This document shows, piece by piece, positions 2-60,568 of a stretch of 64,000 nt of DNA (positions are counted from its first letter, which is position 1; the number at the start of each line of letters is the position of its first letter). A program made the position numbers and the translations under genes. Origin of the DNA: Bimastos eiseni (taxonomy: Eukaryota > Annelida > Clitellata > Crassiclitellata > Lumbricidae). Location of the stretch: the NCBI GenBank assembly GCA_959347315.1, contig OY365822.1, forward strand, positions 14,770,519-14,834,518. The letters run 5' to 3'. Below the pieces are notes generated by a model. The model was given only the letters and a program-made list of their open reading frames with translations, had not been told where the DNA came from and made no database searches.

Positions 2-892
2 AACGGACTACGTCCGCAAACGCGCCAGGCTGTTCTAATCAAAGGCGCATCAGATATTGATGAGCTTTTAGAAGTCGCCAACTTGGTAGAAATTTCTACT
101 GAATCAGAAGTTGCGGGAAGTAGTGAGATTCTTCAAGCGCTCGCTGATATGAAGTTAGAATTGATCAAAATACAAAAGAGCCCAGTAGTGCCTGTTAGGG
201 ATTCGGTTGGGCCACGTAAAGTAACATTCGCGTTAGCCTCGGACACCGAGCAAGATTCACAGGAGGCTCATTATCCGGAATGGAATGATGATTTGCAAGG
301 CGACATTTGGTATGATACTAATCCCATTTTGCCTTGTGACCCTAATCAGGCATCCTCTCGTCCCGAAGCCCCATTTGGCACGAACATAGGATATAGAGGA
401 CAAATGCATAATTACCGTCACGCATCATCTTCCCAAGGGTCGAGTTTATCTCCAGCTATCCCTGGCGTCTCTAGGCATAACAACTACCAATCATCTTACA
501 CCCAGCAAGACCATGTTCCTTCGTCCGCGTATCCAGCTCGTGGGTACAACGACAATAATTCCTCGCGGAATCCATCCCAGCGAACAAATGGCAATTCGTC
601 GGGTCCGATGTTGCGAAAACCTTTTCCTAAAGGTCAATTCTCTCAGAGTCCGCAACAGAACAATACCAGGATGCCATTAGCCCAGAAGTCTAGCTCTTTC
701 GCACCTCGTTTTAACCGGCCTCAAGGACAAGTCTCACCTCAGTCCTCTTTTATGAACGGACCGCCTTGTAACAACTGTGCCAGCTGGCATCCGCCACGTC
801 GTTGTCCTGTATACGGGACACAATGTCGAAATTGCTTTCAGCTTCATCATATTTCTCGATGTTGTATGTCAACAGGGAGAGGGTCACAATGA
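2..892 (+). CDS. gag: Gag polyprotein (5'-partial)
   Basis: The frame is already open at base 2, so the true start lies upstream of the window. The first part is acidic and predicted helical. The middle (about residues 90-220) is low-complexity, rich in Ser, Asn, Gln and Pro. The C-terminus carries a cysteine/histidine cluster (CNNC, then CRNC ... CC) that fits the RNA-binding knuckle of gypsy-type nucleocapsids, though with non-standard spacing. Gag would assemble the cytoplasmic particle and package element RNA. The frame ends in TGA at 890-892, and the protease frame follows in the same phase. Confidence 0.8.
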   Translation, partial: NGLRPQTRQAVLIKGASDIDELLEVANLVEISTESEVAGSSEILQALADMKLELIKIQKSPVVPVRDSVGPRKVTFALASDTEQDSQEAHYPEWNDDLQGDIWYDTNPILPCDPNQASSRPEAPFGTNIGYRGQMHNYRHASSSQGSSLSPAIPGVSRHNNYQSSYTQQDHVPSSAYPARGYNDNNSSRNPSQRTNGNSSGPMLRKPFPKGQFSQSPQQNNTRMPLAQKSSSFAPRFNRPQGQVSPQSSFMNGPPCNNCASWHPPRRCPVYGTQCRNCFQLHHISRCCMSTGRGSQ

Positions 893-1648
893 GGGGACGA
901 GTCTACTATGTCTCAACGAGACCATAGTAGACCAAAGCGATTGTATAAAGTTCGCAAAACTAAGGGTTTTCAGGGTATTTCCACAGTCGCACAAAGTGGT
1001 ATATCACAGGACGTTCGTACAATACCAACAAATTTGCATGATAGCACAGTACATAGCGGGGCCTCATCTGGTCGATTTCAGCAACCACGCCAGACGGCGC
1101 CACCCCAATTTCGAAAACCAAGAGGGCCATCGTCAGTGGTAACTCCTAGAGCGCCTTATGCAAGACACAATTTCAATGGCGCAGGCGAAATTTCTGCTTA
1201 TATTTACGGTACGCATCATCGATGTCTTATAGACACCGGTGCGCAGAGAAGCGTTATTTCTCAACTCGCATTTCAGGCGTTACCAAAGCATCGTCAAATT
1301 CTAGAACCAGCAGAGACTGTGCAATTATGTGGTGCCAATAAAGAGCCCTTAAACATACTAGGCCAAGTCTTGTTAGACATAACTCTTAACGGATTGACAG
1401 TACAATTTCCTTTTGTGGTAATCAAAGAGTTAGTTCACATGTACATTATTGGACAAGATATGCTAATGCAAACACAAGCAACAATCGATTACCAAACACG
1501 TACGGTGTGCTTTTACGATGGTTTAATCTCAGTGGGACTCCGAATAAGAGGCAAAGGACAAGAAAACATTTTGCGTTTACAGTCCAATGTTTGTGTTCCA
1601 CCAAAATCCGCCATTTTGGTGCCCATTCGTGTTCCTAACGTTACGTAG
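893..1648 (+). CDS. pro: Retropepsin-like aspartic protease region
   Basis: This frame is in phase with gag and separated from it only by the TGA at 890-892; the first ATG is at 908. The catalytic signature is LIDTGAQRSVIS near base 1230, followed by the hydrophobic strands of a one-lobed retropepsin, including a GQDML stretch. The enzyme would mature Gag-Pol. The frame closes with TAG at 1646-1648 just as the pol frame opens one phase back at 1639. Stop-codon read-through for pro is possible. Internal initiation at 908 or simple mutational decay is equally compatible. Confidence 0.75.
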   Translation, partial: GDESTMSQRDHSRPKRLYKVRKTKGFQGISTVAQSGISQDVRTIPTNLHDSTVHSGASSGRFQQPRQTAPPQFRKPRGPSSVVTPRAPYARHNFNGAGEISAYIYGTHHRCLIDTGAQRSVISQLAFQALPKHRQILEPAETVQLCGANKEPLNILGQVLLDITLNGLTVQFPFVVIKELVHMYIIGQDMLMQTQATIDYQTRTVCFYDGLISVGLRIRGKGQENILRLQSNVCVPPKSAILVPIRVPNVT

Positions 1649-4600
1649 ATGAGTTTTCTATTGTACAGCCACTTCAGTTTGCGCCTAATCAAGAGTTTTT
1701 AGTTTGTAATTGCCTTGTAAAACCGAAACAGAATTCTTCATTTGTTAATATTTTGAACCCATTCAACCAAGACCTCCATTTGCTCAAAAACCGTCCCATT
1801 GCCTTGATTCAATTCGCTAATGGGAACTCTGTCGTTTCCGCCGATATCGCTGCTCAAGAACCTGCCCCCACTCCTACACGTTCACCAGATGTCGCAACCC
1901 GAACCTCGGTACTCACAGAACTTGGCCTCGATCTCTCAAAAGGTGAATTGTCAGAAGACAATTTGGATCAGCTTACTGAACTGTTGTACCGTAATCGAGA
2001 TGTATTTGCTGCCAAGTTATCTGATCTACCGGGGACATCCTTGATATCACATGATATCGTCACTACTGGACCTCCTTGTCGCCAACGTGCCTACAGACAT
2101 AGCCCAGAGGCAAGAAAAGAGATTGATCGACAAGTTAAAGAGATGTTGGACAATGATATCATCAAAGAGTCGTTTTCTTTATGGCAATCACCCGTCATTC
2201 TAGTCTCCAAGAAAGATGACGCTTCGCCCAGATTTTGTGTGGACCTCCGGGCGTTGAACAGGCAAACTGAACCCCTTGTCTTTCCCTTACCAACTCTGCC
2301 AAGTGTTCTAGATGTCCTAGCTGCTGAACAACCACAATTTTATAGCGCCTTGGACATGAAGGCCGGTTACTGGCAGATTCCGCTGACAGAACGTGGAAGC
2401 CAATGCACAGGATTCGTCACGCATTCTGGCTCCTATTGTTTCAAACGCTTGGCGTTCGGGTTAATGAACGCTCCTAGTTCTTTTCAGCGTCTGATGCAAG
2501 CAGTATTTCGTGAACAATTAAATCAATACGTACTCTGTTATCTAGATGACATCTTAGTCTTCTCCCGATCGTTCAAAGACCATTTGTCACATTTACAGAT
2601 AGTCTTTAACAAACTTAGAGACGCTCGGCTGCGATTACATCCGAAGAAATGTCAGTTGGCATTACGCCGTGTTAGGTTCTTGGGAAATATCCTGTCAGAT
2701 AAAGGCATTTCTGTAGACATGGAGAAGGTGTCGAAGGTAAAGGCTTTTCCACGTCCTGAGTCTGTTCATCAGTTACGTCAGTTTCTAGGACTCTGTAATT
2801 TCTATAGGAGGTTCGTTAAAAACTATGCTCACATAGCTGCGCCTCTAAATGAGTTATTACGTAAGGACGTAAAATTTCTGTGGACTGACGCTTGTGAGTT
2901 GGCTTTCCAATCACTTCGTGGCGAGTTGTCCAGAACGCCAACCCTAGCTTTTGCGAGAATGGATAAGGAGTTCATCCTTCACGTAGATGCTTCGTCACAG
3001 GCAATAGGATACATTCTTAGTCAACTGGATGACCTGGGCCGCGAGGTCCCTCTCGAATTCGGTGGGAGAAATCTCCGAGCCTCTGAACGATCGTATATGG
3101 TCACAGAACTGGAGGCGTTGGCTCTGGTGGAGGCTGTCAGAAGCTTTCATCCGTATCTCGTTGGGCGCAAATTCTCCTTGTTTACAGACCATTTGTCGTT
3201 GCGTTGGTTACAAACTATCCGAGCGTCAACTCAAGGTCGTCTTGCCCGTTGGAGTTTATTATTACAAGGGTATGATTTTTCAATCAGCTATAAGCCAGGC
3301 AAAACAAATCTCGCCGCTGATGCTCTGTCTAGAATGGACCATGAAACACCGCCTGAATTAGAGTCGGATGATGTATTTCTCCAAGACGACATTTATCTCA
3401 GACCTATGGCTGCGCCGCCCCAACCACTGACTACAGACATGCCGTTTGACAACAGTGTACCGTTAAACGTGGTAACGCCACTTCAACAGGCCCGTGCCGA
3501 GGAGGGCGTCTCAACTACTGCTGATACCGAAACTGATCTTATCGACTTTGACTTATTTGATGAATCGGTCATAATTGACGCTCAACAACGGTGCCCAGAA
3601 TTGCTTCCGTTACTGCAGTATCTGGAGTCAGACATCTTACCGCCTGACGACGTGTCTGCAAGACGCATCCTACTTCTGGCTGACCAATTTTCAGTGACCA
3701 ACGGAGTGTTGTATCATCTATTTCAGCCTAGAGCCAAAGACATAGGGATAGCCAAGCCTTTAATTCGTCAGCTGGTAGTTCCTGTTTCTCTCCGAAGCAA
3801 AGTCCTAGAGGCTGCTCACGATCAGATGGCTCATGGGGGTCAAGACAGAACTTACCTAACGTTGAGGACTAGGTTTTATTGGAAGCATATGTACGCAGAT
3901 TCAGTTCGTTATGTGACGTCATGTGTTACTTGTCAGCAAAGTAAACGACCACACACAGCAACCAAAGCTCCACTTCATCCATTGCCAGTCACTGATATCT
4001 TCGCCCGATGGCACATAGACTTTGCAGGACCGTTACCAGTGGGTCCTACTGGCAACAAATACATTCTGATGTGTGTGGATTCTCTTTCCAAGTGGCCGGA
4101 ATTGATCCCTGTCAAGGATCAAAGTGCAGTTACAGTTGCAAATGCGCTGTATGACCATATTTTCACTAGATTCGGACCGCCACACTCATTACTTAGTGAC
4201 CGTGGTACTTCGTTTTTGTCAAAGATTGTCGAAGACTTGTGTAAGCGTTTCAAGGTCAAACGAATTTTTACCTCTAGTTATCACCCTCAGACGAACTCCA
4301 CAGTCGAAAGGGTTTGGTCAGTTTTGTGGGCAGCGTTACGTTCTTACTGCGTTGATCAAACTGATTGGGAGAACCACCTAACGAGCATCGCCTTCGCTTT
4401 ACGAAGTACGCCCTCAGCCAGCACGAAGTTTAGTCCTGCCATGATTCTCTATGGCAAAGACATGGAGTTGCCAATACAGGCGTCGTTGTTGCCTACTTCT
4501 ACAGGTCGTGTGGGCGTTGATGCCTACATTCGTCAGTTGTTGCCAAGGTTACGGGTAACTAGGCAAGTTGCTCTAGACAATATACAGGCTGCCCAACAGA

Positions 4601-5424
4601 CATATAAGAAATTCTATGACCAAAATCAAAGACCAGTGGTTTATCAGACGGGTGATGTTGTATGGCTGCATTCAAGTTACAATCCGAAAGGTGTTTGTCC
4701 AAAGCTTCGGCGTAAATTTGAAGGCCCATTTTATATAGTGAGTCGAGCTTCAAATGATACCTATAGAATTCGCAATGCAGCGACGAATCAGTTGGTATCA
4801 TCAGCAGTTCATGTCAACAGACTTCGGTTGCATGTTAATGATCAAGAATTGCTTTGGGAAAAGTACCATGATCTCATGGGTCCAGCTGCTCAGCAAAATA
4901 GTGACATTGTCGACGAATCTACAGACCTAGTTTCACCATCAGCCGCCGAGGCTTCGTCGGACGCGCAACCTGCCACGTCCGCCTTAGACGTTGCAGATCT
5001 TCAAGAGGGCGAGCCGGTATTGTCCAATGACGTATCTGCACCGTCGCCGTCTCAATCGGCGTCTACTTCCAACGACGCTCCTCGTGAATCACCTCTTCCA
5101 GACCAGCCAGATTCGTCGCGGTCTCCTTCACCTCCCATTGCGACGGATGGCTTGGATGGGGCCCCTAATGCTGCTAGTAGTAGTCAGCCGTGGTTTCCCG
5201 CGGATAAGTTGTTGAAATGTAAAATTACAGATGGCCGTCGAATGTATTTAGTTAAATGGTCAGATACAAAATGGCCGCCATCATGGGAGTCTGAAAAAGA
5301 TGTGACCCCAGCTTTAAAAGATACATTTCATTCGGCGTATACTTGTTCTGGTACAAAACGCAAAACGGGTTCGCGTCCGAACAAATTTATTAGTATTCTT
5401 ATATCCATCGGAGATTTTTATTAA
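1639..5424 (+). CDS. pol: Pol: reverse transcriptase, RNase H, integrase, chromodomain
   Basis: The frame is open from 1639; the first TTG-led long frame begins at 1753 and gives 1223 residues (numbering used here). The RT has ALDMKAGYW with its Asp at 201 and the active-site YLDD at 263-266. RNase H shows HVDASS (Asp 412) and FTDH. Integrase has an HHCC zinc-binding segment ending in CVTCQQSK and a D-D-E triad at 756, 816 and 852 with 35 residues between the last two, as is canonical. A Ser/Pro/Asp-rich linker leads to a C-terminal chromodomain (about 1153-1205, with YLVKW and SWE), which in related elements directs insertion to modified chromatin. No stop interrupts the frame. Confidence 0.92.
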   Translation, partial: RYVDEFSIVQPLQFAPNQEFLVCNCLVKPKQNSSFVNILNPFNQDLHLLKNRPIALIQFANGNSVVSADIAAQEPAPTPTRSPDVATRTSVLTELGLDLSKGELSEDNLDQLTELLYRNRDVFAAKLSDLPGTSLISHDIVTTGPPCRQRAYRHSPEARKEIDRQVKEMLDNDIIKESFSLWQSPVILVSKKDDASPRFCVDLRALNRQTEPLVFPLPTLPSVLDVLAAEQPQFYSALDMKAGYWQIPLTERGSQCTGFVTHSGSYCFKRLAFGLMNAPSSFQRLMQAVFREQLNQYVLCYLDDILVFSRSFKDHLSHLQIVFNKLRDARLRLHPKKCQLALRRVRFLGNILSDKGISVDMEKVSKVKAFPRPESVHQLRQFLGLCNFYRRFVKNYAHIAAPLNELLRKDVKFLWTDACELAFQSLRGELSRTPTLAFARMDKEFILHVDASSQAIGYILSQLDDLGREVPLEFGGRNLRASERSYMVTELEALALVEAVRSFHPYLVGRKFSLFTDHLSLRWLQTIRASTQGRLARWSLLLQGYDFSISYKPGKTNLAADALSRMDHETPPELESDDVFLQDDIYLRPMAAPPQPLTTDMPFDNSVPLNVVTPLQQARAEEGVSTTADTETDLIDFDLFDESVIIDAQQRCPELLPLLQYLESDILPPDDVSARRILLLADQFSVTNGVLYHLFQPRAKDIGIAKPLIRQLVVPVSLRSKVLEAAHDQMAHGGQDRTYLTLRTRFYWKHMYADSVRYVTSCVTCQQSKRPHTATKAPLHPLPVTDIFARWHIDFAGPLPVGPTGNKYILMCVDSLSKWPELIPVKDQSAVTVANALYDHIFTRFGPPHSLLSDRGTSFLSKIVEDLCKRFKVKRIFTSSYHPQTNSTVERVWSVLWAALRSYCVDQTDWENHLTSIAFALRSTPSASTKFSPAMILYGKDMELPIQASLLPTSTGRVGVDAYIRQLLPRLRVTRQVALDNIQAAQQTYKKFYDQNQRPVVYQTGDVVWLHSSYNPKGVCPKLRRKFEGPFYIVSRASNDTYRIRNAATNQLVSSAVHVNRLRLHVNDQELLWEKYHDLMGPAAQQNSDIVDESTDLVSPSAAEASSDAQPATSALDVADLQEGEPVLSNDVSAPSPSQSASTSNDAPRESPLPDQPDSSRSPSPPIATDGLDGAPNAASSSQPWFPADKLLKCKITDGRRMYLVKWSDTKWPPSWESEKDVTPALKDTFHSAYTCSGTKRKTGSRPNKFISILISIGDFY

Positions 5425-13949: not shown

Positions 13950-15926
13950 TACAATATTTATTGCTTTATAATTATTAAAATCGAAATTAAGGAATTCCTT
14001 TGTATATTGTCCATGTGACAGGATTGGTTCAATGTTGTTTATTAAATGTTCTGCAGAATTATCCTCCACATTTTCATTTGCATATTTGTTATCAATTAAC
14101 ACAAGGAGTTGCAGGACTATCTTCCCTACTGTTTTCATTTTCATTCAATTTGTGTTTTGCTGGAATATGATGTCTGTCTACTGTTTGTGTGATTGTCTCA
14201 CTTTGTACTCGATGCATCTTGGCTGCTTCTGCATAAGACATCCTCTCCACAGCCGTAATTATTTATATTTCCTGAGTCCTTATATACACAGGGCATCCTC
14301 GATGAGCAGCGCTATGCTCTTCGCCACAATTAACACATCTTTTAATTTCTCGATTAGGACAATCCTTGTATGATTGATTTACACTGCATCCTCTACAAAT
14401 AGTTGGCCTAGGACATTTAAAGCTAGTTTGTCCAAAATTTTGGCATTGATCACAACTCCTTGGCTTTGGAATATATTCATGAGCTTCAAATTATCTGCCA
14501 TAGGCGTGAATAAAAGGTGGCAAGTTAGTTTCCTGTGTGAATGTGACTAGCAGTGTTTTGCTAGTTTCTGGTTGGCCAATCCTTTTAATCTGAACAGCTC
14601 CTATGGCCGTTGCCGGTTCTGACAAATTTTCTTCTGTTTCATCAATTCCGTGTATCACACCCTTTGCCAAAAATACAATCTCCCCTCTGGAGTTTCCTAA
14701 ATCCTGAGTTGGAAAAAAAGAATTGTTTTTGACAAAGAATAGGGTAGACTAACTGTGACACTATATCCACATAGGTTATTTAGCTTCAAAAGTCTGGTTT
14801 TTTAGCCTCGTTTTGTGTTAGAATTTTTAGTCCTTTGTCAATACGGACTGTTTGAACAACATCTCTATCTGCCTGTGCTGTAATTTCTTTAAATAACTGA
14901 ACAGGCTTAGTGTTGAAAAGCTTATGCAAAACATTTGCTTCACTAGATCCAAAAACTGTCTTAGACAGACTGCTTTGATATCTCACTATTTGTTCCTCTG
15001 CTAACTGAGAACGGATTTGACTGTTCGGTAATTTCTTAGTTTTACAAGTATTCACCTGATCTCTTAGTTTACTATCCACTGTGTTTGAATAATTCTTTAT
15101 GAGTACATGTGTTATTTGTTTAGTTTCAATATCCTTGATTATAATAATATTATTCACAACATGTTCAACATCATCAGCATCTAATTGGACATCAATTAAA
15201 CCTAGATTTTGAACATTCTCATTTTGAACAATTTCATTTTGAACATTTTGAACAATCTCATTTTGAACAATTTCATTTTGAACAATCTTATTTGGAACAA
15301 TCTCATTTTCACAATCATTCATAATATTACGATTTACTTCATCAACATCACACTTGTTATCACTTTCTAGGTCAAGACCATAAACATTCATTTGAGTATC
15401 TTCTATCTGCAATTCAATTTTATTATTTACATCAGTTTCATCATTTTTATGATCATTCCTAGAACAACCATCATTTCCTAATTTCATTTTGTTTTTGTAA
15501 TGTTGGTAGATTTTCTTACCATCCTTTCCTTTGGTCTTCTGAGTAAGACTTTTCTGTTCTATTTGCTGATTTCGCTGTTGGGGGTTTTGCCTTTAAGGAT
15601 GAGACCTCCTGCGATGCTTTTGACTGATTTCTAACAAAGGAATGCAATTGCTGGACCGCCACGAATTTTGGGTGTGAATCTTGTTCAAAATCGATTTCCT
15701 GATTCGTCTTGTAAAGTTTTTCATCTGTCATTTTAGATGCTGATTTGTCAGCGGCCGACGAGACATCGTCCTCGGTTATTGGTTCCCCTTCCAAAAGAAG
15801 TCCGCACGTTGACTGGTTTAAGGAAGGGTTAACTGAATTTGCTGAATTTGACGAACTGGACGAAGTATCCAGAGGTCGTTTGTAGCTACCTCCTTGCATT
15901 ATTTGATATTTCTCTTTATTTTCCAC
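13950..15926 (-). pseudogene. ORF1 (nucleic-acid-binding, CCHC) of the LINE
   Basis: The region opens with a Ser/Asn-rich N-terminus (15926-15516), continues after a frame change with an acidic stretch containing tandem IVQNE repeats (about 15300-15210), and leads to a conserved block shared almost word for word with 41.33-41.67 kb. Beyond it, CCHC-type zinc knuckles are legible on the minus strand (CDQCQNFGQTSFKCP and CVNCGEEHSAAHRGCP, about 14450-14290). The family role is binding of element RNA. At least four frame breaks make this copy non-functional. Confidence 0.8.
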
Positions 15927-38217: not shown

Positions 38218-39384
<1,167 letters not shown>

Positions 39385-39938: not shown

Positions 39939-41214
39939 CTACTATTTCTAGGACTTCAGGTTTTTAGGTACGCAAAGCGGACACAAAATTGCGATCGAGA
40001 ACATCTTATTCGCTCTTTTCAAGTATCCCCACGACATAGCTTATATTCGTGTATATTGCAATAAGAATTATTCTGATTAGCTTCAAGCACAATAACAATT
40101 AATAAAATTGAAAAGGCTAAAACTAGAAACCTGCAAGTTTTAAATGAAAGGTGTTCAGTCTTGTTTAAACTTGAAAACCGAGGTTTTAAAATCAAATTCT
40201 ACAGCCCTGGGTATTTCTAAGGAGCTTCTTGTTTCAGTAATAGGATACGTATCGCCTCCAACTAACATTTATTATATTCAGCATTGTCTATTTTCTAACG
40301 AATTTAACTCTGTAATAGCCGCCTCTGTAATTGTGAACTGAATAGGTGTGAGCATGCACTTGTAATTAAAGTGTCAAATCCATTAATTAGAAACTACTGA
40401 AGAGGCTGAAGTATACCGTTAGTTTTTGCAAAGCAAATATCAGTGTTATTTACGTGACCACATTAAGTATATGCTGCTGTCAGCCACTGTTGCTCAGCTA
40501 TTGGATAATTTTTCAACCAATTGCCGATAAGTAGCTCTCTCAAACGTACATATATAAGAAGCGGGAAGTGTGTCCATCGTTCGATTTCAATAGGATCTTA
40601 ACTCTTAACTGAGATGGGATTCAGATAAAACTTATACATACATTTCAACCAATATTGTTCGGTTGCTGGTTTCATTTACACAGGCCTTGTTACATCTATT
40701 TGCTGTGGCAATCGTCTAATTATAGCCGTGAACGCCCATACACATGTAATAAGGGATGGGAGGCACAGTTTCGATGCCATTTAAGACGAGATCTACTTGG
40801 TTTTACGAGAAAATTGAGGCTTGAAGGGCGGAATTAGGCTTTCAAAAAATTAACACCCATGTCTTTTTATGTGTTATGCGGTGGGTGCAAACGACTATAA
40901 TCGTAATTTGAATTTAGTCGCCCAATGGTATTGCATTGTGCTGTATTTTCGTATGTTCGGCCAGTAAGGGCAGACCGAACCCTGCTCGGTGCATAATTAG
41001 GTTTCGTTACTTAATTTGCATCTTTTCTTTACGCTTAACTCAAGATGGAAATTGCTCAATTTATTCAGCATTTTCCATCGACCTTGTAACACACAATTCA
41101 TATCCAAATCCTGTCTTAACGAAGGAAGAGCAATCCATTAGAATCACAAACATATAAGAAGAAGAAGACTAATAATAATAATTATAATAATAATTATAAT
41201 AATAATAATAATAA
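39939..41214. other. Intergenic, nothing recognised
   Basis: No gene or repeat is recognised in this 1.3-kb stretch apart from AAT-rich runs at 41172-41215. Confidence 0.4.
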
Positions 41215-41690
41215 ATATGAAATTGTTAAACATGAGATTGCTAAAAATGAGATTGTTCAAAATGAGATTGTTCAAAATGAGAATGTTCAAAATCTAGATT
41301 TCATTTATGTCCAATTAGATGCTGATGATGTGGAACATGTTGTGAATAATATTATTATAATCAAGGATATTGAAACTAAACAAATAACACATGTACTCAT
41401 AAAGAATTATTCAAACACAGTGGATAGTAAACTAAGAGATCAGGTGAATACTTGTAAAAATAAGATATTACCGAACAGTCAAATCCGTTCTCAGTTAGCA
41501 GAGGAACAAATAGTGAGATATCAAAGCAGTCTGTCTAAGACAGTTTTTGGATCTAGTGAAGCAAATGTTTTGCATAAGCTTTTCAACACTAAGCCTGTTA
41601 AGTTATTTAAAGAAATTACAGCAAATGCAGATGGAGAGGTTATTCAACAGTCCGTATTGACAAGGGACTAAGAATTCTAACAAAAGTCTT
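41215..41690 (+). pseudogene. ORF1 fragment of the I/Jockey-like LINE
   Basis: A 113-codon frame (41330-41671) is nearly identical to the conserved ORF1 block at about 15180-14840 on the other strand, and the preceding bases hold the same IVQNE-type repeats. It is cut off before the zinc knuckles and meets, head to tail, the inverted 3' end described next. Confidence 0.85.
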
Positions 41691-56476: not shown

Positions 56477-56482
56477 TTTATT
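56477..56482 (-). promoter_or_regulatory. Polyadenylation signal of the ankyrin-NTase gene
   Basis: AATAAA on the minus strand lies 24 nt beyond the distal TAA (56506-56508). Confidence 0.55.
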
Positions 56483-56733
56483 GCAGTACATAAGACTTGG
56501 ATTAATTAGCTGGAGCTACGAGAAGACAGCTTTCTAATGAATTCTTTTCTATCAAATTGCTCCCAGTTTGAATCAGGATTCGCATTAAGCAGTTCTTCCG
56601 GAATTTTGTTAGGAATTATAGGAATATCAATTGCAGTATCATCTGAGCACAGGTCAGGGTAGATTCCAAAAGACACAGAGTATGTTAAAGAGACATTGAT
56701 CTAATCGTTTTCATTGATTTTTGTCAAAACCTT

Positions 56734-57978
56734 CTATTTACTGACTGTTGGGACTGTCTGTTTGAAAGATGGCACGAAGTAACAAGGATAAACGCAGCGA
56801 CGAGAAAACTCTGTGAAGCAAAACATAATCCTCTCGACCCAGAAGGCGAGTTGCTTCGGAGTGATTTCGTCTTCATGCCTTGTTTGACTTATATTTCGGG
56901 CATTTAGAGCCTCCATGCAAAAGAGAAGACAATTCTTCAATTGATATGTAATTTTCCGATAAGAATAAAGTATAATCTTGCAAACTAAGTATGCTGCCTT
57001 TGTTAAAGGCGGACTTTCTTTTATGATTCGACTTTCTAATGGAGCAAATGAAATTCTGGCAACTGTTTCGGGAATGGGAAGTTTAATGCAGTTTGTCTTG
57101 AACGAATCAAAACGTGGCCCATCAAAGACCATCGTAGAACCATTTGCCTGCACATTAGGGTTAATGCCGACTGGTATTGGATCTTCCGATAACCAGCCAA
57201 TCACGAGAACACAAGCAACAACGTCAATTGAAATGTCAACAAACAATAAGTCGCCCTCTCCATCCTCTATGGGACGAATCATTCTTAGCTTCAAGGTCTT
57301 ACACATAGCACCTGGCGTTTCAGATTCCTCTTCATCTTTATAGTCATATTCGAAATAATGTTCGTTTTGCCAAAATTTAGGGTCCTTTAAAACTTCTTCT
57401 ACAAGAATCTTGAATATGGAATTAACTTCATTACACAGTAAATACTGATCTTCGTTGAAGAAACAGCCAAACCTCTCATCACTTGGTCGCTTTGGATCAT
57501 CAGTTGGCTTCCGTTTCAGTTGAAAGTATCCCTTCGGACACAATGGATGAGGAAAAGCTTCGCAAAGTTGGCTGAGTTTAATCAGTCTGAAGTTAAAATC
57601 AAAGTCTGCTGAAATGACAACTCTTGTTTCCTCTTCAGCACTTCCAACTAAAGTCGGTTGGGACTCAAATCGATCGTCCTTTTCGTTTATGCCATTCGCC
57701 AATCGCTCAATGAAGTTTTTTAGTGATGGCTTGAGTTGGTTTAGGCGTCCGTTGAGGCGAAATAATTCATTTTGGTTCCAAATCTTCCAAATTGCTTCTT
57801 CTGACGATTCTTTATGGCGAGGTGATTGGGAGATAATTCTAATCGTTTCGACCAGTCTTTGCCTAGTTAATTCTGTCACCCGGTTTGGGTTGAGTTCTTG
57901 AGCAATATCTATTGGCAAGTAAAGCGCCTTATCTCCGATTGGCAAATTCCTTACGTTGTTTTCGTTGACTTTTAACAA
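56734..57978 (-). CDS. Mab-21/cGAS-like nucleotidyltransferase domain (longest intact part)
   Basis: The frame has no ATG at its start; it continues ankyrin coding from upstream. A helical spine (KPSLKNFIERLAN, about residue 83-95) precedes the NTase signature: GSAEEETR at 112-119, DFDF with acidic residues 125 and 127, and the third acid in VDISIDVVAC at 252. A C-terminal helical region (LTKAAYLVCKIILYS ... LKNCLLFCMEAL) matches the Mab-21 C-lobe. In cGAS and cGLRs this triad binds two metals and makes a cyclic dinucleotide after ligand sensing; some Mab-21 proteins are inactive. All three acids present suggests the ancestor was active. No zinc-ribbon like that of vertebrate cGAS is seen. 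Confidence 0.75.
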   Translation of the reverse strand: MLKVNENNVRNLPIGDKALYLPIDIAQELNPNRVTELTRQRLVETIRIISQSPRHKESSEEAIWKIWNQNELFRLNGRLNQLKPSLKNFIERLANGINEKDDRFESQPTLVGSAEEETRVVISADFDFNFRLIKLSQLCEAFPHPLCPKGYFQLKRKPTDDPKRPSDERFGCFFNEDQYLLCNEVNSIFKILVEEVLKDPKFWQNEHYFEYDYKDEEESETPGAMCKTLKLRMIRPIEDGEGDLLFVDISIDVVACVLVIGWLSEDPIPVGINPNVQANGSTMVFDGPRFDSFKTNCIKLPIPETVARISFAPLESRIIKESPPLTKAAYLVCKIILYSYRKITYQLKNCLLFCMEALNARNISQTRHEDEITPKQLAFWVERIMFCFTEFSRRCVYPCYFVPSFKQTVPTVSK

Positions 57979-58230
57979 TTCTCGTAGCTGCTTAAGATCT
58001 TTAGGTGTATGTCCCTGTTTGTCTTTAGTATTTTCATCAGCTCCTTACTGGATGAGAAGCTCGTACAGATCCTTCCTTTCTGCGTAATGTAACGGGGTTT
58101 TTCCATACATGTCACATGCGTCTACGTTTGACCCTATTTCTGATAACACCCTGATGACGTTTAGGTTGCGCTGCTGCATGTTGTGGACGATGTTGGCACG
58201 GCAGCATAGTGAAGTGGAGTTCTTCCTTTG

Positions 58231-59757
58231 TCATCTACTGCATTGGCCAAATGTTTGAAATTCTCTAGCCCTAGAAGAATTCCGTGCACGATTAAGTCGA
58301 ATCTTGGAAGGTATTGTGATTGTGGGAGTTCCTTCACATCTTTTTTCTGCTTCATACGAAATGTGACAGATAATTAATCGATGAAGTGGGTTTCGACCTC
58401 TCTTGTCCACTTCGATTGGCGCTCCATCTTCTGGTTCTAGTGACTTTCGAATGGCACTACGATTCTTAAGTGCTTCGAGAATCGCTTTTGTAATTCGTTT
58501 CGAAATCATCACTGCTAAATCAAGTGGCGTATTTCCTCTTAAGTCTACGGCATTCACATTAGTTCTGTCATTTTTCAGCAACAACATAACCACTTCTTCT
58601 GTAAACCGAATTATTTCTTTGTAACATTCAATAGTAATCTGTAGCTTTCCAATAACTGTATTTGGATCGACAGTTTCCTTTCCCCAGTTAGGCTTATCCT
58701 TGCTACCAATCTCAAGAGAATTTACCAAGTTAAATGTTAGTTTACAAAGCTCCTTGTAAAAGTAATGCAAATGAAACCAGTTCCTATTTGGCTCATAGAT
58801 GGCTGCGTGTAAGGCTGTACACCTACAATAGTCGTACAAATTAACGGAAGCTTTATGGCTTAGCAGCAGTCGCACTACGGAGTCATAATGTCCTTCGGCT
58901 GCTTTTATCAAAGCCGTCGCTCCATATTCGTCTCTTGCGTCAATATCGAGTTTTATTTCTGATATTTCTTCAAAGTCAAACAACGTTTGAATGACATCAA
59001 GACAACCCCTCTTAGAAGCAATAAGCAAAGGTGTTTCGCCAAAAGAATTTTTCAGGTTGAGATCTGCTCCTTTCTCTAATAACAATTGTATCACGTCCTT
59101 TATGATACTATTCTGCAAACTTTGCCAGTTTGCGTCATCACTAAGACTACCAGAAAAGAAATTCACATCATTCTGCCAAATGATATCGTGAAGGAACGTA
59201 TTTAAAAACATATCTTGGTGGTTGACATTTAAGTTGTTCGAGTTAATTAGAGATTGTGCGATTTCTTTAAAACCCATCCTGCCTTTTATAGCGTCACTTT
59301 GAGTAGCGTATGTGAAATACCCAGGTCGTATTTCCTTTATTATGGAACGAAAGCTCTTTGCACAATCTGCTTCTGTGTACATACATTGATCTACACTAGG
59401 TACTAACTTAACCATTTTCGAGTCATTCGAAATCATCCATAGTGGCATATTTATTTCTGTGTAAACTATTTCAGCAGAAACACGTCGTCCATCAGTTTTT
59501 AGAAATTCAACTCTCTTGGAATTCTCTTGAAGTTTCTCCCCTTCTATTGCTAATTTCTCATAAATACTGCGGCTGTGTTTCAAAATGACCTTAACAACTT
59601 CAGTGTGACCTACTTTGATGGCAGCGTGCAATGGTGTAGCATATTTTCCAGGGATATCTACGAAATCGCAAACGCCACGGCGCATTAATAAATCAGAGAC
59701 AGCTGCATGACCAGTTTTGGCTGCAAGGTAAAACGATGTTTCGGGAGTTTGCTTCAT
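58231..59757 (-). CDS. Ankyrin-repeat region (longest intact part)
   Basis: 508 codons with clear TPLH-type repeats near both ends: YLAAKTGHAAVSDLL and ATPLHAAIKVGHTEVV first, then GETPLLIASKRG, GATALIKAAEG, CTALHAAIYE, GNTPLDLAV and RNPLHRLI. A non-repeat insert of about 120 residues (YTEINMPLWM to FSGSLSDDANW) separates the first pair from the rest. Ankyrin stacks are protein-binding scaffolds. The ATG at 59755-59757 is internal, because similarity to ankyrin repeats continues upstream in other frames. Confidence 0.8.
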   Translation of the reverse strand: MKQTPETSFYLAAKTGHAAVSDLLMRRGVCDFVDIPGKYATPLHAAIKVGHTEVVKVILKHSRSIYEKLAIEGEKLQENSKRVEFLKTDGRRVSAEIVYTEINMPLWMISNDSKMVKLVPSVDQCMYTEADCAKSFRSIIKEIRPGYFTYATQSDAIKGRMGFKEIAQSLINSNNLNVNHQDMFLNTFLHDIIWQNDVNFFSGSLSDDANWQSLQNSIIKDVIQLLLEKGADLNLKNSFGETPLLIASKRGCLDVIQTLFDFEEISEIKLDIDARDEYGATALIKAAEGHYDSVVRLLLSHKASVNLYDYCRCTALHAAIYEPNRNWFHLHYFYKELCKLTFNLVNSLEIGSKDKPNWGKETVDPNTVIGKLQITIECYKEIIRFTEEVVMLLLKNDRTNVNAVDLRGNTPLDLAVMISKRITKAILEALKNRSAIRKSLEPEDGAPIEVDKRGRNPLHRLIICHISYEAEKRCEGTPTITIPSKIRLNRARNSSRAREFQTFGQCSR

Positions 59758-60568
59758 TACATCCAGGTAGCATGGTCGTCCAGTAAAATCTCAACAATCG
59801 AAGTGTGACCCTTTTCACAAGCTAAATGATGCAGAGTCATTTTGGCGTTGTTAGAAGCATGAACATTCGCACCATTTAATATAGTATTCTGTACAATGTC
59901 TGCATGTGGTGTCGCTTGACCTTTGCACACTGCTTTGATGGAAGTATCAATACTTATTTGAAAATTGACGTTTACACAGTTGCCACCTTGTGCTGAGTTT
60001 GGTTAAATGTCTGATGATAATCGACTGTTTTTCTGATGGGATGTTGCGAAGGTTTAAGTTCAGCTACAAGAGCTTGGTCTATCGTCAGTTGCGAACGAGT
60101 TGGCACATCCGTTTTCGTTGTTTGATTGAATAAACATTTACAATATCGGTGTAGCCATTTCTTGCTGCAAGCTGAAGAGCAGTGTTGCCATTTCTATCAA
60201 CCGCATTTATATCACTCTGAAGATCTATCAATGCTTTGACAATTTCCACGTGACCAATTTCAGCAGCCAGATGAAGAGGCGTTTTACGTTAAACATTGCA
60301 ACTATTAACAGTTGCATTGTTTCACAACAAATCCTCTGCAACATCCAAATGACCATATTGGATGCAAGATTGAGCGGAGTATCACCAAGAAAGTCATCTT
60401 TAGCTGCTGAACGTATTCAACGCGATCATTTTCTGACGTATTAAATGCATGAGTGTTGTTTCTCGTGTATAGTATACGAGCACCCAACGTATCATCACCA
60501 CGTCCTGCTTCTGCGTTTATTGATTCCTCACTCATTTCAGAATGAGTCAGCATCCTATTCAGCAACAT

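Follow-up and report, generated by a model that had tools for sequence, protein, structure and literature searches.

A decayed ankyrin-nucleotidyltransferase gene in the annelid Bimastos eiseni and its cGAS-like family of largely tandem genes

Li et al. 2023 (PMC9980059) report that 87% of cGAS-like receptors (cGLRs) stand alone and that ankyrin or TPR modules are present in some; ankyrin fusions are among the 42 cGLRs that they describe in the coral Stylophora pistillata, and they give the motif of the group as h[QT]GS[X8-20][DE]h[DE]h[X50-90]h[DE]h. The word 'ankyrin' was not found in the accessible text of PMC10732462. A gene of comparable construction is described here from the annelid Bimastos eiseni, at positions 56506..60568, on the minus strand, of a 64,000-nucleotide stretch of contig OY365822.1 (hereafter the window; the contig is C17 of a 660-Mb, 118-contig assembly). 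Reading of the sequence, translation and Pfam searches place there an ankyrin array, a linker, a nucleotidyltransferase (NTase) and a C-terminal tail, and what is seen is an animal gene in a decayed copy, whose unbroken relatives are open in one frame. It is nearly certain that this family is of the cGAS/cGLR kind, with an N-terminal ankyrin array fused to a two-lobed NTase. A sequence-only reading of the window had implied that the fusion was new; this part does not stand, since ankyrin-fused cGLRs are already described in PMC9980059, the one paper in which the literature searches showed such a fusion. The coral proteins share with the annelid ones the fusion of NTase and ankyrins in one protein, the many cGLR-type genes and STING, whereas the B. 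eiseni genes differ from the published ankyrin-cGLRs, compared by description only, in forming large arrays and in their departed motif.

Within its own genome, PF03281 gave at least 148 matches (150 of 179 candidates scored) and the NTase frame of the window gave 61, the first being the window itself. Twenty of these loci have uninterrupted frames of 960-2072 amino acids (pieces sharing a frame merged), the other rows being broken, partial or short. Eleven of the 20 are near relatives, 56-65% identical: nine belong to arrays on C17 (5.27-5.33, 5.84-5.88 and 14.19-14.23 Mb), and C6 and C7 have one each. Four on C13 are 38-42% identical, and of the five more distant ones three lie on C17, at 4.93-4.96 Mb, one on C4 and one on C15. 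Ankyrin repeats over the Pfam cut-off share the frame of the NTase in all 13 of the 20 that were scanned, the fused arrangement proposed in the sequence-only reading. The unbroken kin sit largely in tandem arrays, and they keep their catalytic residues. Spread as retrocopies or through a mobile element, the window copy being one dead insertion, would agree with the intronless open 4-kb frames on several contigs (C17, C6, C7) and with the broken pieces on C10 and C12. It is nevertheless very improbable, as arrays hold most of the matches (on C17, 5.27-5.33, 5.83-5.87 and 14.05-14.30 Mb; on C13, 17.75-17.85 Mb), which fits local duplication, and no poly-A tract was seen where the window copy has its 3' end. 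Other Mab-21 genes form large clusters on C7 (~6.2-10.9 Mb) and C5, with frames of ~700 or 960 amino acids. Loci L005, L008 and L018 of these clusters, together with L017 (C17) and L020 (C9), have Mab-21 and Mab-21_C in their N-terminal part, and the C-terminal half of each of these five gave no Pfam match at E<0.01.

Outside the genome, the NTase frame of the window finds three proteins, P0001, P0002 and P0003, with 71%, 58% and 62% identity. When pieces of the broken protein (region 260-1240) served as query, 143 proteins were reported among 7970 scored candidates, and among the 120 matches listed most are ankyrin proteins without a noted Mab-21 domain. The best match, P0004, comes from a contig of 6384 bases and has an unbroken frame of 1349 amino acids; its identity is 50%, with 99% of the query region covered, and against the window by tblastn it aligns in a single frame over 59733-56527, with 48% identity. 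Its NTase region in turn finds P0123 (1111 amino acids, 31% identical, E 8.5e-43), plus one weak ankyrin-only match. Ankyrins are combined with Mab-21 at 43.0 bits in P0123 and at 37.7 bits in P0005 (1816 amino acids), and repeats over the cut-off stand in the NTase frame of P0004, P0005 and P0123, as well as of P0001, whose start is truncated. Relatives sought in collections of viral contigs and genome contigs were not confirmed. As to the proposed match of the window to the Mab-21 profile, one of seven window pieces matches it below the cut-off (E 0.0025, 18.4 bits where 24.1 are required), but from relatives of 57-71% identity one arrives at members that exceed it. After its NTase, P0001 continues with low-complexity, bacterial-looking sequence (residues ~468-716), and an origin of this protein in a phage or symbiont was considered on account of those last ~250 residues; nothing resembling it was found in phage records, PHROGs matches were confined to its ankyrin end, and it is probably a chimera of metagenome contig assembly.

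The catalytic residues of the window frame are as the sequence-only reading described them: the Gly-Ser of the GS motif is G134-S135 (57640..57645), the first two metal ligands are Asp147 (57606-57604) and Asp149 (57600-57598), together 57598..57606, and the third is Asp274 (57223..57225). In an alignment of the family, the glycine, the first acid (D/E) and the second (D) are conserved in 25 of 25 rows and the third (D) in 24, the row without it being the frameshifted L043. Against the PDB, a seven-row family profile aligns to 8gjw at positions 81-212 and, weakly (8.3 bits), at 261-420, and reaches mab-21-like 1 with an E of 0.044. The predicted model of P0002 aligns over residues 56-463 and is two-lobed and cGAS-like, as had been expected of the core; it differs from 8gjw, the Cv-cGLR1 of the eastern oyster, in having 17% identity over 297 aligned residues. 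The NTase of P0123 alone matches cGAS-like receptor 1 at 1.3e-5. By sequence and fold, the nearest solved relatives are cGAS and cGLRs. Single sequences gave candidates that were rejected, the window frame finding designed ankyrins only and P0002 the I-MsoI endonuclease (E 0.0029 at best), with cGAS at E 0.9-1.1; a four-row model of the window frame was uninformative. The fusion, the identity of the NTase and its metal ligands, all claimed beforehand, are backed by the family profile, the tree, the model fold and the unbroken relatives.

In the window itself, direct reading of the minus strand gives an ATG at 60568 and a final TAA at 56508-56506, in agreement with the extent and strand first assigned. 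Upstream ankyrin pieces lie in two frames with two stops (60133..60407; Ank 8.3e-16 in 60288-60085), and another ankyrin piece follows in a different frame (59764..59984; Ank 2.5e-6 in 60002-59757). The main ankyrin block is an open frame at 58350..59763 (Ank_2 5.2e-30 in 59790-58231). Translation and the frame path show an out-of-frame ankyrin stretch between two frame changes (58200..58346), after which the last repeats return to the NTase frame (58045..58197; Ank 2.9e-4 in 58230-58045) and end in an internal TAA (58047-58045), where the frame of P0001 is open. The 436-amino acid frame at 56737..58044 comprises the end of the last repeat, the linker, the Mab-21/cGAS-type NTase and the C-terminal lobe, assigned through the sub-threshold PF03281 match and the relatives. 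The C-terminal tail (56506..56736), similar to those of P0002 and P0004, has two internal stops before the final TAA, and an AATAAA at 56477..56482 was read as a possible polyadenylation signal. Four of the seven window pieces match ankyrin models over or near the cut-off; pieces 60568-60305 and 56700-56506 gave no Pfam match. When searched with a purpose-made ankyrin profile of 31 units, the window pieces gave 14 matches, 10 of them at E<0.01, close to the ten or so repeats originally counted.

The window copy is broken, because five internal stops (60324-60322, 60291-60289, 58047-58045, 56736-56734 and 56703-56701) and seven frame changes lie along the chosen path, the two most upstream changes and the true start being weakly supported. 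Its longest minus-strand frames, of 519 and 436 amino acids, are not due to chance, since in 1000 first-order Markov resamples of this sequence the longest frame averaged 97 amino acids and was 211 at the most. That these two frames are still open would be expected if the breaks were assembly errors and the gene intact in the animal, but so many stops and frame changes within 4 kb, in an assembly where 20 relatives are open over at least 960 amino acids, make this explanation extremely improbable. The omega of the window NTase against its paralogs, 0.31-0.64, is within the range of unbroken pairs (19 rows), as expected with a decay recent relative to the divergence, although pairwise omega cannot isolate the window branch and a recent decay is not demonstrable from such values.

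The descent of the family was examined in a tree of 37 NTases, in which the 26 ankyrin-type rows, among them the outside proteins P0005 and P0123, form one side of a branch (99/90), opposite 11 other own-genome Mab-21 proteins; the tree is limited by one very long branch (C16) and by a small choice of other Mab-21 proteins. The label 'ankyrin-fused' derives from a one-frame Pfam check in 17 of the 26 rows, the remaining nine (the window, L011, L026, L028, L032, L036, L038, P0002 and P0003) being placed by NTase similarity. The tree left out L030 (a near copy of L028), the frameshifted L043, the fragments or second pieces L039, L041, L042, L044 and L045, the single broken C13 copy L006/L013 and, from the other Mab-21 loci, L007, L014, L019, L022, L023, L024 and the second L015 frame. 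The MAB21L1/2-type proteins share PF03281 with the family, whereas the four own-genome rows of that type (L001-L004) stand on the other side of the branch; a family-like GS..DxD was not found in three of them and gave only a spurious match in the fourth. On C7, the copy L040 forms a group with P0002 and P0004 (100/100), which suggests that the subtypes predate the divergence of the source species. Both parts of the protein are constrained, the ankyrin part less so and with a faster evolution than the NTase: its omega was the higher in 44 of 45 pairs, with medians of 0.60 and 0.47 (10 unbroken loci, without L030, L047-L049 and the broken loci; the pairs are not independent).

These results can be joined in a mechanism, in which the ankyrin array of the unbroken genes would bind a protein, either a foreign one or one of the host's own that infection has altered, and this binding would free or orient the NTase, which would make a cyclic nucleotide from nucleoside triphosphates for STING to read. 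Expansion, birth and death of copies and faster-evolving ankyrins would be in keeping with a recognition repertoire that is diversifying, with the window copy among its losses. Innate sensing and the synthesis of a cyclic dinucleotide by the family are what we infer. As a whole, the account comprising anatomy, family, ankyrin sensing, cyclic nucleotide, STING readout and the window as a lost copy is the best explanation and a reasonably probable one; the ankyrins as sensor with a cyclic-nucleotide output, taken separately, is tentative, its chances being slightly short of even. STING_LBD-like exons occur in the genome as seven partial matches over the cut-off, six at C3:3713319-3762939, one of these with an internal stop, and one at C17:9959528-9959752; they are probably several clustered genes on C3 and one on C17.

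Characterised cGAS and cGLRs sense nucleic acid, and cGAS is strongly basic. The NTase of this family might likewise sense nucleic acid itself, the ankyrins only placing or clustering the enzyme or binding regulators. The nearest solved relatives are nucleic-acid sensors where characterised (PMC9980059). In the 26 ankyrin-type rows the NTase has a net charge of -19 to +5, and in the four MAB21L-type rows one of +7 to +16; seven other non-ankyrin rows of the genome, of cGLR type, are similarly charged (-8 to +4), so that charge does not distinguish the ankyrin type and speaks only mildly against DNA binding like that of cGAS. Furthermore, profile alignment found in the family no counterpart, at the aligned place, of the cysteine cluster of 7lz3, which we take to be the zinc-thumb motif of cGAS, and the faster evolution is in the ankyrin part, not in the NTase. 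The family differs from cGAS in its ankyrin array, in a charge near zero or negative and in the missing cluster. Nucleic-acid sensing by the NTase is considered unlikely, though more probable than the other rivals.

Several observations weigh against the favoured account of ankyrin-triggered enzymes read by STING. Of the 13 ankyrin-type frames scanned in this genome, Mab-21 is listed at E<0.01 in nine and exceeds the cut-off in only five; outside the genome it does so in three of six relatives (P0001, P0005 and P0123), with no Mab-21 match in P0002 or P0004. The literal motif of PMC9980059 occurs in none of 26 rows: the three acids, the initial spacer of 11 and the GS, which one row of the 26 has as GG, agree with it, but V or I precedes GS/GG in all 26, and the gap between second and third acids is 121-167 residues in all 26. 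The serine of the GS motif is kept in 23 of 25 rows, two near-identical copies having GG. Each STING_LBD match covers 70-86 of 182 model positions. Ankyrin omega is below 1 in the 45 pairs, hence its faster evolution does not mean positive selection, and the sole recent pair with an omega of 1.73 (L029/L032) includes a copy with an internal stop. The GG copies, L028 and L030, are near-identical unbroken neighbours on C17 (5.87 and 5.86 Mb) that keep the acids; from their sequence they are possibly altered or dead enzymes.

The motif departures in 26 of 26 rows, the GG of L028 and L030 and the weakness of Mab-21 models in the near subfamily would also be accommodated if the NTase were a pseudoenzyme and the family worked through its ankyrins as a scaffold or adaptor that makes no nucleotide. 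This is improbable, as the acids are retained in 25, 25 and 24 of the 25 rows, whose identities range over 24-70%, and the NTase is under purifying selection (median omega 0.47). Besides the motif and the synthesis of a nucleotide second messenger, PMC9980059 considers homology and predicted structural homology to known cGLR/CD-NTase proteins, and these two were found. Because they hold while the literal motif fails at two points, the family is classed as cGAS-like by predicted fold and descent, an ankyrin-fused clade close to or within the cGLRs and not a proven cGLR. A bolder proposal, rather doubtful at present, is that of an old, separate cGLR class recognising proteins and not nucleic acids, which would have arisen by a single fusion, diversified in tandem like NLR or plant R-gene clusters and changed its active-site motif, possibly yielding a new product read by STING.

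Elsewhere in the window, a Gypsy-type retroelement with a 1261-amino acid pol-like frame was identified by eye at 2-5421 (plus strand), and two frames, 14789-15592 (minus) and 41120-41668 (plus), have a common block of ~90 residues, from a repeated gene or element. A satellite at 38229-39383 consists of 144 copies of TGAGTGAG with 99% matches and a strong GC skew, and there are further retroelement-like frames and satellites. Rfam gave no match in the window at the gathering score, and no tRNA was found in it.

Ankyrin arrays would serve here as recognition or adaptor modules, as they do in the ankyrin-containing NLR-like or CARD-ANK proteins, from which the family differs in that no NACHT, CARD or death domain is among the listed matches of 13 ankyrin-type open reading frames. 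The departure from the published motif suggests that motif-based cGLR censuses may undercount such members. If the enzymes are indeed switched on through their ankyrins, about 20 related receptors in one genome would be available for the study of protein-triggered cGAS-like enzymes, and would form a panel to ask whether cGLR repertoires diversify like other families of immune receptors. As a possible set of sensors for infection, this large family looks worth examining.

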